A stretch of 35,523 nt of DNA from Nitrospirota bacterium (GTDB taxonomy: Bacteria > Nitrospirota > Thermodesulfovibrionia > Thermodesulfovibrionales > UBA6898). The DNA is taken from contig JAKAKQ010000270.1 of NCBI GenBank assembly GCA_021813425.1, positions 1-35,523 on the forward strand. The letters are read 5' to 3'. The notes under the pieces were generated by a model. The model saw only the letters and a list, made by a program, of their open reading frames with translations. It was not told the DNA's origin and searched no databases. Position numbers and translations under genes: made by a program. This document shows, piece by piece, positions 5,552 through 14,748 of the stretch; positions within the stretch are counted from its first letter, which is position 1; each line of letters begins with the position of its first letter.

Positions 5552-5741
5552 TACACTTAATTCATAAATTTTACTGAATGCCGAAAGGATATAGTATTTG
5601 AGCGGTTTTATTTGGCCGATATTCAGACAGTATATATTTTGATAAATAAAGAGGGCAAATTCCTCGGAGGTCGAAGACCGAGAATGAGCGAGGATACTAT
5701 GTCCTTTCGTTATTATCATAGTTTATGAATTATCCGGGCTA
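5552..5741 (-). repeat. Nested-palindrome repeat element, copy B
   Basis: Read on the minus strand, this runs from TAGCCCGGATAATTCATAAAC (shared end) to about TTTATGAATTAAGTGTATTA. Internally it has a second inverted pair, CGAAAGGATATAGTAT (5582-5597) with ATACTATGTCCTTTCG (5694-5709). It also has a small hairpin around CTCGGTCTTCGACC and a conserved core (actgtctgaatatcggc). It aligns along its whole length with the copy at 14056-14252. The listed ORF 5480-5719 lies mostly inside it and is not a gene. Its terminal TAG forms the stop codon of the ubiB-like gene. Confidence 0.75.
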
Positions 5742-7358
5742 ATCCCTCATCAGCCTGAATACAGACAACAAGCCCAAAATTACTGCAGCAGCGGCTGCAA
5801 CAAGTGCAAGCGTTTTATTCCCGATCAATATAAAAAAGAGTGAAGACGCAGCGGTTGTCACAGTCAGGATCACGAGCATCATGACATTTGTCATGGACTT
5901 GAACTGGCCTGTGATCTTCTGCATCTCTGATTTTGAAAGCCTGAAAGACAGTTCACCCCTGTTTGCCTTTGAGAGAAATTCATTTATTTGTAAAGGCAAA
6001 CCCCATAGACTCCCTATTTTATCTCTCAGGTCCGTAAAAATCTGCTCTCTCTGCTCCCTGTGGCTTCCCCTGAGGAACTCTTTTATATAGGGCTTTCCGA
6101 TTTCGATGATATTTATTTCGGGGTTAAGATTGAAAGCGATCCCGTTCAGTATCCCTATAGTCCTTCCAAGGAGTATGAAGTTGTTTGGTATCTGTATGTA
6201 TTTAATAATGCTGATGATATTCTCTATCTCTTCGGAGATGTCATCAACAGAAAGGGCCTTAAGTTCCGCCGGGGTGATATCCCTGTATTTGTCTATCAGG
6301 GATTGTGCAACATTGGTTAATGCACCATAATCAGCTCCCTCTATAATAAAACCCATTTTTTCCATCGATTCTATTATCCTAGATGTATTCCTTTCAACCA
6401 GGGAATTGGCAAACCTTCGCAGTTCTCTTTTTATAGTGTCAGGTATGGCCTGCACCATGCCGAAGTCGACAAATACCAGCTTCGGACCTTCCATCACAAA
6501 TATATTCCCCGGGTGTGGGTCGCCGTGGAAGAAGCCGTGGATAAAGATCATCTTTGAATATGCCTCTGCAACGAGATTTACGGTCTCCTTGCAGTTAATG
6601 CCCGCTGCCTTAACAGCAACACAGTCTGTTATCTTGATGCCTCCGACGAATTCAAGTGTTAAAACCTTCGGTCTTGTGTAATCCCATTTTACAAGTGGTA
6701 TTATTATCCTTTCATCTTCCCTGAAATTCTCCCCGAACCTTTCGGCATTTTTACCCTCCTGAATATAATCAAGCTCAGTCCTGATTATCTTCGAAAACTC
6801 TTCATGGAGTATCTTGAGGTTTATATTCCCATGCCTGCCCCGCATTATCTTTACAAGTACATAGAACATCTTTATGTCGGTCTCTATGATCTTCTCTATA
6901 TCAGGGTACTGGATTTTAACGGCGACTTCCTGGCCATTTTTAAGGACTGCCTTGTGGACCTGCCCGAGTGATGCGGCTGCAACCGGCTCTTCATCAAATT
7001 TCGAAAAAATATCTTCAGGGGCTGAACCAAATGCATCGATAAGCTGTCTTTTTATCTCAGGGTAATCATGGGGCGGGACCTGATCCTGAAGTTGAGAGAG
7101 CTCGGATATATATTCATCCGGAAGAAAATCTATCCTCGAACTCAGAAACTGCCCGACCTTGATCATAACGCCTTTCATCTCAATGGCCTTTTTCCTTATA
7201 AGAGAGGCGTTTCTTTTATGGAGCTTTTTAAGGTAGGCAGATTGTGTCCCGGAAGACATAAAGATCATAAATATCTTTGCAGCTTTATAGGAAAGCAATA
7301 TCCTTAGCGCTACAAAGAGCCCTTTTAAAAATCTTCTCCGATAATATATTTTTGTCAT
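5739..7358 (-). CDS. ABC1/AarF/UbiB-family atypical kinase
   Basis: A 539-aa protein-kinase-like protein of the UbiB/ADCK type, a family tied to isoprenoid-quinone synthesis or lipid homeostasis at the membrane. Visible motifs are KxGQ at residues 67-70 (KVGQFLSSR), the Ala-rich nucleotide loop AAASLGQVH (about 127-135) replacing a Gly-rich loop, VAVKIQ with the conserved Lys at 148, HGDPHPGNI (278-286) and DFG (298-300). Two hydrophobic helices close the C-terminus (about 490-535), as usual for bacterial members. It lies 37 bases downstream of trmJ on the same strand, probably one transcript. Its stop codon TAG is the first triplet of the adjacent repeat element, so the native 3' end may have been altered by that insertion. 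Confidence 0.92.
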   Translation of the reverse strand: MTKIYYRRRFLKGLFVALRILLSYKAAKIFMIFMSSGTQSAYLKKLHKRNASLIRKKAIEMKGVMIKVGQFLSSRIDFLPDEYISELSQLQDQVPPHDYPEIKRQLIDAFGSAPEDIFSKFDEEPVAAASLGQVHKAVLKNGQEVAVKIQYPDIEKIIETDIKMFYVLVKIMRGRHGNINLKILHEEFSKIIRTELDYIQEGKNAERFGENFREDERIIIPLVKWDYTRPKVLTLEFVGGIKITDCVAVKAAGINCKETVNLVAEAYSKMIFIHGFFHGDPHPGNIFVMEGPKLVFVDFGMVQAIPDTIKRELRRFANSLVERNTSRIIESMEKMGFIIEGADYGALTNVAQSLIDKYRDITPAELKALSVDDISEEIENIISIIKYIQIPNNFILLGRTIGILNGIAFNLNPEINIIEIGKPYIKEFLRGSHREQREQIFTDLRDKIGSLWGLPLQINEFLSKANRGELSFRLSKSEMQKITGQFKSMTNVMMLVILTVTTAASSLFFILIGNKTLALVAAAAAVILGLLSVFRLMRD

Positions 7359-12880: not shown

Positions 12881-13549
12881 ATGTTTGACATCAGGCAGGT
12901 ATCGATATTCAGCACATTAATCCCACAGGAAGCCAGAGAGATAATTCCGTATCTTATGCCTGACAAATTCGTAAAAAAAGAGACCATTTTTTCCGAGGGC
13001 GACCAGTCTGAATGGTTCTATATTGTTACAAAAGGGAAGGTTAAGATAACAAAGATATCCCAGGAAGGCAAAGAGATAATTTTAGAGATCATTTCACCAA
13101 AAGATTTTTTTGGCGGTATAGCTGTTGTAAGGGGATTCCCTTATCCTGCCAATGCCGTTGCTATGGATGATACAGAGGTCCTGAAAATCTCGAGAAATAA
13201 TCTCATGAAGATAATGGACAGATTCCCGAACCTTATGTATTGTATGGCAACTAATATAGGGGACAGGATAAAAGACTCTCACGAGATGATCAAGAGTATA
13301 GCTCTCGAAAAGGTGGAATCAAGGATTGCATCACTGCTTATAAAACTGTCGGACAAGGCCGGGGAAAAGACTGCTGACGGTATGATGATAAACATCAAGC
13401 TTACAAAGCAGGACATAGCAGAAATGGTCGGGACAACAGTAGAGACATCCATCAGGACCATGAGCAAGTTTTCAAAGCAGGGGCTGATAGCATCAAAGTC
13501 CGGAAGGATTGTTATCAGGGACCTCGAAAAGCTGAAGTCCCTGACATAA
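12881..13549 (+). CDS. Crp/Fnr-family transcription regulator
   Basis: A 222-aa regulator. Residues about 10-115 form the cyclic-nucleotide-like sensor barrel (FVKKETIFSEGDQSEWFYIVTKGKVKI), followed by the dimer helix (SRIASLLIKL) and a winged helix (LTKQDIAEMVGTTVETSIRTMSKF, about 171-194). It lacks the N-terminal Cys cluster of Fnr, so it is not an oxygen-sensing Fe-S protein. It resembles the Dnr/HcpR/NnrR side of the family, which can bind heme or respond to NO, but the ligand cannot be read from sequence. The recognition helix keeps Glu and Arg (VETSIR), suited to a TGA half-site, as found upstream of the two neighbouring genes. No Shine-Dalgarno precedes the ATG (ttctacttct). Confidence 0.9.
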   Translation: MFDIRQVSIFSTLIPQEAREIIPYLMPDKFVKKETIFSEGDQSEWFYIVTKGKVKITKISQEGKEIILEIISPKDFFGGIAVVRGFPYPANAVAMDDTEVLKISRNNLMKIMDRFPNLMYCMATNIGDRIKDSHEMIKSIALEKVESRIASLLIKLSDKAGEKTADGMMINIKLTKQDIAEMVGTTVETSIRTMSKFSKQGLIASKSGRIVIRDLEKLKSLT

Positions 13550-13555
13550 ACGGTT

Positions 13556-13957
13556 TTATGCTTTGGGCAGAAGGGTCGCAAGCATATTGTAAAAAAACAA
13601 ACCGATCGAGACCACCTGTAGCGCTCCGAAAACTGCTGCAAATCCTTCAAAAGTCTTCAAAGGCATAAACACATTCAGCGTGTAAAATAAAAGCATGCCG
13701 ATGAGGCTGATGTTTGCTGCAAGGAAATGCAATTCTCCAAGTTGTGGATATCTAAGCGGTCTTCCGGAAAACCGTGGCAGAACATGGTATCCGACCCCGT
13801 AGATCATCATCGAGACCCATCCGAGCATATTAAGATGGGAATGCACAAACTTTAGCGACATTAGAGAGGGATACCTCAGCATGCATACGCCCAGTATTGA
13901 TGAGATTCCAAGATAGATTATGCTTGAGATAATAAAATTTTTGACAAACCTGTCCAT
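13556..13957 (-). CDS. Small heme-copper-oxidase subunit I-like membrane protein
   Basis: A 133-aa protein with about four TM helices. The stretch KFVHSHLNMLGWVSMMIYGVGYHVLPRFSGRPL looks like TM helix II of CcoN/NorB-type subunit I, where the first His is a low-spin heme ligand. Three His residues (HSH and YHV) lie in or beside it. The full 12-helix subunit is absent; such short stand-alone versions occur in anaerobe NO/oxygen-stress loci. Likely role (inference): heme-binding membrane protein in NO or O2 response. AAGGAGG precedes ATG. A Crp/Fnr-type palindrome (14022-14037) sits at -41.5 from its predicted start. It converges with the regulator gene, 6 bases apart. Confidence 0.75.
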   Translation of the reverse strand: MDRFVKNFIISSIIYLGISSILGVCMLRYPSLMSLKFVHSHLNMLGWVSMMIYGVGYHVLPRFSGRPLRYPQLGELHFLAANISLIGMLLFYTLNVFMPLKTFEGFAAVFGALQVVSIGLFFYNMLATLLPKA

Positions 13958-13994: not shown

Positions 13995-14037
13995 ATCATA
14001 TAACAGAAAATTCAAGCCGTCTATGATAAATGTCATA
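13995..14037 (-). promoter_or_regulatory. Class II Crp/Fnr-type operator and -10 for the oxidase-like gene
   Basis: Palindrome TATGAT-AAAT-GTCATA (14022-14037) has its centre at 14029.5. On the minus strand the -10 box TATGAT (14000-13995) predicts a start at 13988, putting the operator centre at exactly -41.5, the classic class II activation position. No -35 is needed in that arrangement. Confidence 0.6.
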
Positions 14038-14055
14038 AAGCATCTTTATTATTCA

Positions 14056-14252
14056 TAGCCCGGATTATTCATAAACTGTTGCAGGTGGAAGGCGGGATAT
14101 AGTACTCTCGCTCATTCTCGCTGCGCTCCGAGGCTTTTGCCTCTTGATCTAACAGAAACATACTGTCGGAATATCGGCAAAAGAAACCGCTCGAATACTA
14201 TATCCCGCCTCATTCTGGCTTGCTTTGTTTGAAATTCATGAATAATGTGAGA
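14056..14252 (+). repeat. Nested-palindrome repeat element, copy A
   Basis: Starts TAGCCCGGATTATTCATAAAC and ends near TTCATGAATAATGTGAGA, with the outer pair ATTATTCAT (14064-14072) / ATGAATAAT (14238-14246). The inner pair is a perfect 14-bp inverted repeat GGCGGGATATAGTA (14091-14104) / TACTATATCCCGCC (14196-14209), with a small hairpin CTCGCTGCGCTCCGAG inside. It aligns with 5741-5552. It encodes no protein and lies between the two Crp/Fnr-type operators of the divergent genes. It and the operators account for the 419-base gap 13958-14376. Confidence 0.75.
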
Positions 14253-14301
14253 TAGAAAAGGCTGGGAGTTTATCAGATGCTGACAATTCAACTCCTACAA
14301 G

Positions 14302-14344
14302 TATGACAAAGGTCATATCATTCATTTTTCTCATCGGCTAAAAT
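14302..14344 (+). promoter_or_regulatory. Class II Crp/Fnr-type operator and -10 for the DUF1858 gene
   Basis: Perfect palindrome TATGAC-AAAG-GTCATA (14302-14317), centre 14309.5. The -10 TAAAAT at 14339-14344 gives a start at 14351, again placing the centre at -41.5. It is nearly identical to the site at 14022-14037. Confidence 0.65.
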
Positions 14345-14376: not shown

Positions 14377-14586
14377 ATGAACGCAACAAAAAAACTCGTG
14401 ACAAAGGATTCCATAATCGGAGATGTTATCAGGGAACAGCCGGGTGCAAAAGACGTCATACAGAAGTATTTCGGTGGCGGATGTTTTACCTGTCCGGGAA
14501 TAAATATGGAGTCAATAGCTTTTGGGTCCATGATGCATAACCTTGACCCTGACAAGATTGTGAAAGAAATAAACGAACTGGCATAA
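14377..14586 (+). CDS. DUF1858 / hybrid-cluster-associated redox disulfide protein
   Basis: A 69-aa protein of the DUF1858 type (TIGR03980-like). It has DSIIGDVIREQPGAKDVIQKYFGGGCFTCPG with the redox-type CxxC, then a second short helix. The N-terminal domain of ScdA/RIC-type iron-sulfur repair proteins has the same fold, and stand-alone forms are found with hybrid cluster protein genes. A role in nitrosative or redox stress is inferred from family and from the operator upstream. AAGGAGG lies at the right distance from ATG. The small zinc-knuckle gene follows after 33 bases. Confidence 0.88.
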   Translation: MNATKKLVTKDSIIGDVIREQPGAKDVIQKYFGGGCFTCPGINMESIAFGSMMHNLDPDKIVKEINELA

Positions 14587-14619: not shown

Positions 14620-14748
14620 ATGGCATTAAAATGTTTTATCTGTGGAATATCGGACAAAGAAAGGGTTTTGCTCAAGTGTGTGCATGAAGGCGACGAAAAG
14701 TATGTATGTGTAAGATGCCTGCCTGTTCTCATTCACGGCGGCCATTAA
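14620..14748 (+). CDS. 42-aa zinc-knuckle protein, below the ORF-track cutoff
   Basis: ATG 14620 is preceded by GAGGAGG and opens a 42-codon frame with two Cys pairs: CFIC near the start and CVRC near residue 31 (VCVRCLPVLIHGGH), plus extra Cys20 and the terminal His. The Shine-Dalgarno and paired CxxC make this a real small gene. It lies directly after the DUF1858 gene and probably shares its transcript and its Crp/Fnr control. Function is unknown; a zinc- or redox-binding partner is plausible. Confidence 0.7.
   Translation: MALKCFICGISDKERVLLKCVHEGDEKYVCVRCLPVLIHGGH

Follow-up and report, generated by a model that had tools for sequence, protein, structure and literature searches.

E. coli FNR carries a V-E-x-x-x-R recognition helix, reads a TGA core and activates as a class II regulator from sites centred at -41.5, and in CRP the residue that reads TGA is Glu181. 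Resembling the system described here in function are the HcpR (HcpR1/HcpR2) regulons of delta-proteobacteria, Clostridia, Thermotogales and Bacteroidetes, in which a Crp/Fnr protein is predicted to control hcp and nitrogen-oxide/redox genes through an N4-centred palindrome (PMC1274295); heme-based sensing has been reported for HcpR (PMC12750200). DNR and NnrR of Proteobacteria are likewise Crp/Fnr proteins and regulate nor and nitrite reductase genes, with DNR reading CTTGAT-N4-ATCAAG and NnrR ctTTGcg-N4-cgCAAag, and the base that precedes TGA has been tied to the residue at CRP position 180 (PMC1274295).

We analyzed one stretch of 35,523 nucleotides, called the window throughout, from the Thermodesulfovibrionales. 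This order is widespread in groundwater, sediment and wetlands and mostly uncultured, and how it regulates its genes has hardly been studied. Two palindromes in the window are very probably class II operators of a Crp/Fnr activator that serves a nitrogen-oxide regulon and is most likely encoded by the gene next door. This regulon resembles those of HcpR and DNR in function but is set apart from HcpR, DNR, NnrR, FNR and CRP by its operator. For nitrogen-oxide metabolism throughout the order it would supply a regulator together with its operator and a list of its targets.

Results

The two near-identical palindromes of the preliminary description were recovered at exactly the positions in Table 1, between the divergent COX1-like and DUF1858 genes and 280 bp from each other, and they are the only zero-mismatch matches in the window to TATGAYNNNNRTCATA (TATGAY-N4-RTCATA). 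In both promoters the distance from the palindrome centre to the first base of the -10 box is 29.5 bp, which places both operators at -41.5 from their predicted starts, as had been claimed. Elsewhere in the window, at 5880-5895, lies the palindrome CATGACATTTGTCATG, which departs from the motif at two positions.

Table 1. Coordinates of the regulator gene, the predicted operators and promoters, the intervening repeat and the predicted target genes in the window
Feature	Position	Strand	Basis
Crp/Fnr-family regulator, 222 aa	12881-13549	+	PF00027, PF13545
COX1-like 133-aa membrane protein, predicted target 1	13556-13957	-	PF00115, TIGR00780, conserved His
Predicted start, COX1-like gene	13988	-	Centre 14029.5 minus 41.5
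-10 box TATGAT, COX1-like gene side	14000-13995	-	Script extraction
Predicted operator 1, TATGATAAATGTCATA	14022-14037		Sequence and motif search
Multi-copy palindromic repeat, separating the two promoters, outside the regulon	14078-14222		43 genome matches
Predicted operator 2, TATGACAAAGGTCATA	14302-14317		Sequence and motif search
-10 box TAAAAT, DUF1858 gene side	14339-14344	+	Script extraction
Predicted start, DUF1858 gene	14351	+	Centre 14309.5 plus 41.5
DUF1858 69-aa protein, predicted target 2	14377-14586	+	PF08984, TIGR03980
42-aa Cys-rich protein, second gene of DUF1858 operon	14620-14748	+	Conserved downstream of sites

The preliminary description had made its reading depend on enrichment of the motif at other promoters, and this enrichment was found when genomes were scanned with the reversed pattern as control. 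The source genome (3.51 Mb, 398 contigs) holds 9 exact sites against 1 for the control, and 61 related genomes of the family and order hold 306 against 37; requiring a TAnnnT box at the fixed distance leaves 183 sites in those same genomes against 2. Sites with one mismatch (66 against 29 for the control) were too noisy for assignment.

Spacing was analyzed in 50 loci that had been fetched with the regulator protein as the sole criterion, promoters playing no part in the choice. Of 51 sites, 44 had TAnnnT exactly 29.5 bp away on one side or both, as compared with an average of 2 in 102 oriented sites when other offsets were taken, so that the class II geometry first proposed from the window is upheld across relatives. 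Among 45 aligned promoters from these loci the base 41.5 bp from the centre, i.e. the predicted start, was A in 37, and no -35 hexamer was conserved. The centre at -41.5, the -10 box and the lack of a conserved -35 are together the features of class II Crp/Fnr promoters. A larger promoter set gave the same peak at 29.5 bp (70 of 100), although that set is not independent because part of it was selected by the spaced box. Loci of relatives, six of them and others besides, often have two operators 44-77 bp apart, mostly in register with their own promoters. At two further loci, L140 (palindrome at 2328) and L146 (2817), the divergon has moved elsewhere in the genome and one palindrome has been retained; this lone palindrome is flanked on either side, at 29.5 bp, by TATACT, which suggests that a single operator serves two class II promoters facing away from each other.

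About half of the 280 bp between the operators of the window is made up by an imperfect palindrome of about 115-145 bp that is REP- or MITE-like, with inverted arms at 14090-14118 and 14182-14210 and near-complete copies elsewhere in the genome at 73-96% identity. On the same contig there are copies at 5587-5704 (minus strand) and at 36066-36183, past the end of the window. A structured RNA between the operators was considered and rejected, since the intergenic region had no Rfam match and the strong hairpin (RNA fold z -6.1) is a copy of the repeat.

The preliminary description had also pointed to a neighbouring Crp/Fnr gene with a VETSIR helix, and the gene at 12881-13549 does encode such a protein. 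Its matches to PF00027 (E 3.2e-24) and PF13545 (E 5.5e-20) are far over cut-off and supply the cNMP-type sensor domain and Crp-type winged helix that define the superfamily, and an AlphaFold model (mean pLDDT 88.5, pTM 0.59) confirmed the Crp fold; neither the model nor the fold matches identified a ligand. Orthologs at 60-83% identity occur throughout the family and in much of the order, and the named matches are nearly all from Nitrospirota, many of them labelled Thermodesulfovibrionales. The recognition helix, TTVETSIR, is nearly invariant among orthologs, with V187, E188, I191 and R192 invariant in 14 diverse ones. An FNR-type oxygen sensor was rejected because the N-terminal cysteines of the FNR-type 4Fe-4S set are absent; the single cysteine, C121, is Ser in 3 of 30 close orthologs. 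Both candidate heme ligands, H134 and C121, vary among orthologs, and heme sensing as in HcpR cannot therefore be claimed. In the ortholog alignment the pocket motif is YPANAVAM rather than the RS pair that marks cAMP binders in CRP, so cAMP binding is not expected; in this the protein differs from GlxR and mycobacterial CRP (4byy, 3r6s, 3h3u), which at about 25% identity are among its best PDB fold and sequence matches. The regulator and COX1-like genes converge. Autoregulation was not seen: in none of the 50 loci do the 300 bp ahead of the regulator gene hold an exact site.

The first predicted target matches PF00115 (E 7.5e-6, under the Pfam cut-off) and TIGR00780 (E 1.4e-4), and appears as a fragment-like relative of heme-copper oxidase subunit I (CcoN/COX1 helix with HxH) in which the HxH pair H39 and H41 as well as H58 are kept in 30 relatives. 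Because the match is real but below cut-off, "heme-copper-like" is a fair description of this protein and "oxidase" is not. The second exceeds the cut-offs of both PF08984 (E 2.8e-12) and TIGR03980 prismane_assoc (E 9.3e-14), the hybrid-cluster-protein-associated redox disulfide domain. While these two targets are as first described, the zinc-knuckle peptide that had been placed within the DUF1858 protein is in fact a separate downstream ORF. Its 42-aa product has two CxxC-type pairs (CFICG...CVRCLP), is a probable zinc ribbon and had no match among Pfam and NCBIfam profiles; it is conserved downstream of sites in four relatives' loci, and its family, with the pattern CFxCG...CVRCLPxLIHGxH, is repeatedly linked to DUF1858 or to motif operators.

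Other sites in the source genome precede norC and its NorB/CcoN-like partner (norCB), nrfH-nrfA-napA, a CBS-domain gene, and a cupin gene followed by a ferredoxin gene; a NapH-like gene has two sites ahead of it. The nrfH and cupin sites have no TAnnnT box at 29.5 bp. One further site lies inside a response-regulator ORF and is probably a chance occurrence. We rejected hcp as a target in the source genome, which has no clear hcp, whereas in relatives hcp is preceded by the motif and spaced box at 8 loci, with one such product scoring 816 bits to the hydroxylamine reductase model. Also found behind the motif and spacing in relatives are genes for a flavorubredoxin-type protein (flavodiiron NO reductase), NrfH-like and multiheme cytochromes, a sulfite/nitrite reductase-type protein, and NapH-like, HPP-membrane and DUF2249 proteins. 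These comparative data bear out the redox/NO regulon of the preliminary description, but it is not the small, self-contained unit envisaged there, since it extends to norCB and nrfHA-nap in the source genome and, order-wide, to hcp and further genes.

Base preference was assessed in 33 palindromes of the source genome that match TNTGAY-N4-RTCANA, of which 9 are A/A, 2 C/C, 1 T/T and none G/G, the rest being mixed. CRP and FNR have the same TGA-N6-TCA core. A CRP or FNR preference was nonetheless rejected, with no enrichment at G/G or T/T: the CRP operator TGTGA-N6-TCACA would call for G/G, found in 0 of 33, and the FNR/DNR operator TTGAT-N4-ATCAA for T/T, found in 1 of 33 as compared with 9 of 33 for A/A.

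Discussion

The patterns detected in motif, spacing, promoter boxes, target genes and conservation suggest that a dimer of the regulator would bind each operator at -41.5 and act as a class II activator through contact with RNA polymerase, switching on the COX1-like and the DUF1858/zinc-peptide transcripts, which diverge. Control by this operator at this spacing would extend to norCB and further respiratory nitrogen-oxide genes of the source genome and, in relatives, to hcp, flavodiiron NO reductase and multiheme cytochromes, and the regulon seems to switch on nitrate, nitrite and nitric-oxide genes across the order Thermodesulfovibrionales. As the targets are nitrogen-oxide genes, the regulon probably responds to NO or to some other nitrogen oxide.

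Chance, or membership in the adjacent repeat, could in principle have produced the twin palindromes, as AT-rich palindromes do occur and one copy of the 43-match repeat lies between the operators, but the repeat stops short of both, and the enrichment within and across genomes at fixed spacing makes this a negligible prospect; a chance origin was rejected by the reversed-pattern controls together with that spacing. Regulator loci that include the COX1-like gene have a site in 32 of 35 cases and those without the gene in 1 of 15 (Fisher p 1e-8); sites thus track the target genes and not the regulator. In a rival reading, the operators would be real but bound by a different Crp/Fnr protein, with the neighbouring regulator adjacent by chance or history. 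The many Crp/Fnr paralogs of relatives would be consistent with this, as would two exceptions: genome G016, with 8 sites (7 with the spaced box) and no regulator ortholog detected, perhaps due to an assembly gap, and family f3, four genomes that keep the regulator and its helix without any excess of sites (10 against 10 for the control). A different binder is nevertheless unlikely. The source genome encodes only two HTH_Crp_2 proteins, and the other one has Ala at the position of Glu181, the residue with which CRP reads TGA, while the helix of the window regulator is nearly invariant where the motif is constant. Moreover, genomes with an ortholog average 5.3 sites and those without 2.3, or 1.2 if G016 is left aside, with few or no sites in 5 of the 6 that have no ortholog. 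Given the exceptions, the link between regulator and motif is strong but indirect, and on these comparisons the neighbouring regulator most likely binds the predicted operators.

Two further alternatives accept the operators and concern what the regulator does. Repression rather than activation might be proposed from the location of the sites within the promoter, just upstream of the expected -35 position, and some Crp/Fnr proteins do repress. Repressors are not known to need a fixed helical phase, and the centre at -41.5 in 44 of 51 sites, which is the class II activation rule in CRP and FNR, along with aligned promoters that conserve no -35 hexamer, makes repression quite improbable. An FNR-like anaerobiosis switch, by which the regulon would sense low oxygen or the general redox state instead of nitrogen oxides, is the less easily dismissed of the two, with napA, nrfHA, CBS/HPP and cupin targets that would suit it as well, and we regard it as a doubtful but reasonable possibility. 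Against it are a regulator that has no FNR-type Cys cluster and whose single Cys is not invariant, and a set of targets that includes norCB, hcp, flavodiiron NO reductase and the Hcp-associated DUF1858 domain. Activation in response to a nitrogen oxide thus is the reading we favor.

If HcpR is defined by control of hcp and nitrogen-oxide/redox genes, the relatives of the source genome show that function. None of the published HcpR operator types (TGTGA-N6-TCACA, TTGAC-N4-GTCAA, GTAAC-N4-GTTAC) equals TATGAY-N4-RTCATA, the nearest in form being the Geobacter-type TTGAC-N4-GTCAA, which is off by one core position per half-site. No NCBIfam HcpR model matched the regulator and no entry for P. gingivalis HcpR was among its best 60 PDB sequence matches. 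The Nitrospirota regulon also differs from those of HcpR in its phylum and in having the COX1-like/DUF1858 divergon, norCB and nrfHA at its centre. DNR shares a TGAT-N4-ATCA core with the Nitrospirota motif, but the lineage and targets of DNR and NnrR differ (PMC1274295). The base before TGA is A in the operator described here, T in FNR, DNR and Geobacter-type HcpR, and G in CRP and Desulfovibrio HcpR.

With E. coli FNR the regulator shares the V-E-x-x-x-R helix, TGA core, spacing and -41.5 geometry, and it differs in having Ile191 at the position of FNR Ser212, no Fe-S cysteines, and A for T in the operator. At CRP position 180 both the regulator and FNR have Val, and yet the base is A here and not T. 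Judging from sequence comparison, the case is about evenly balanced that the regulator represents a Crp/Fnr subfamily of its own, limited to Nitrospirota, whose operators form a new class and in which Ile191 (FNR position 212) is an added determinant of the base; if this is true, the published residue-180 rule (PMC1274295) is incomplete. In the literature found, with partial coverage, there was no earlier description of the TATGAY-N4-RTCATA motif. The system offers a clean test of how the Crp/Fnr recognition helix chooses the base before TGA.

The association with these operators flags several proteins for NO or nitrite handling, namely the HxH COX1-like protein, the DUF1858 protein, the 42-aa zinc-ribbon-like peptide and the CBS-HPP pair. 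Separately, a conserved Cys-containing protein (CPSCS...HWPIQIKLMGTV...CPKLD), the L106 copy of which had no Pfam or NCBIfam match, was observed behind the operator at four relatives' loci (L106, L044, L048 and L118) and is possibly a new redox protein of the regulon.
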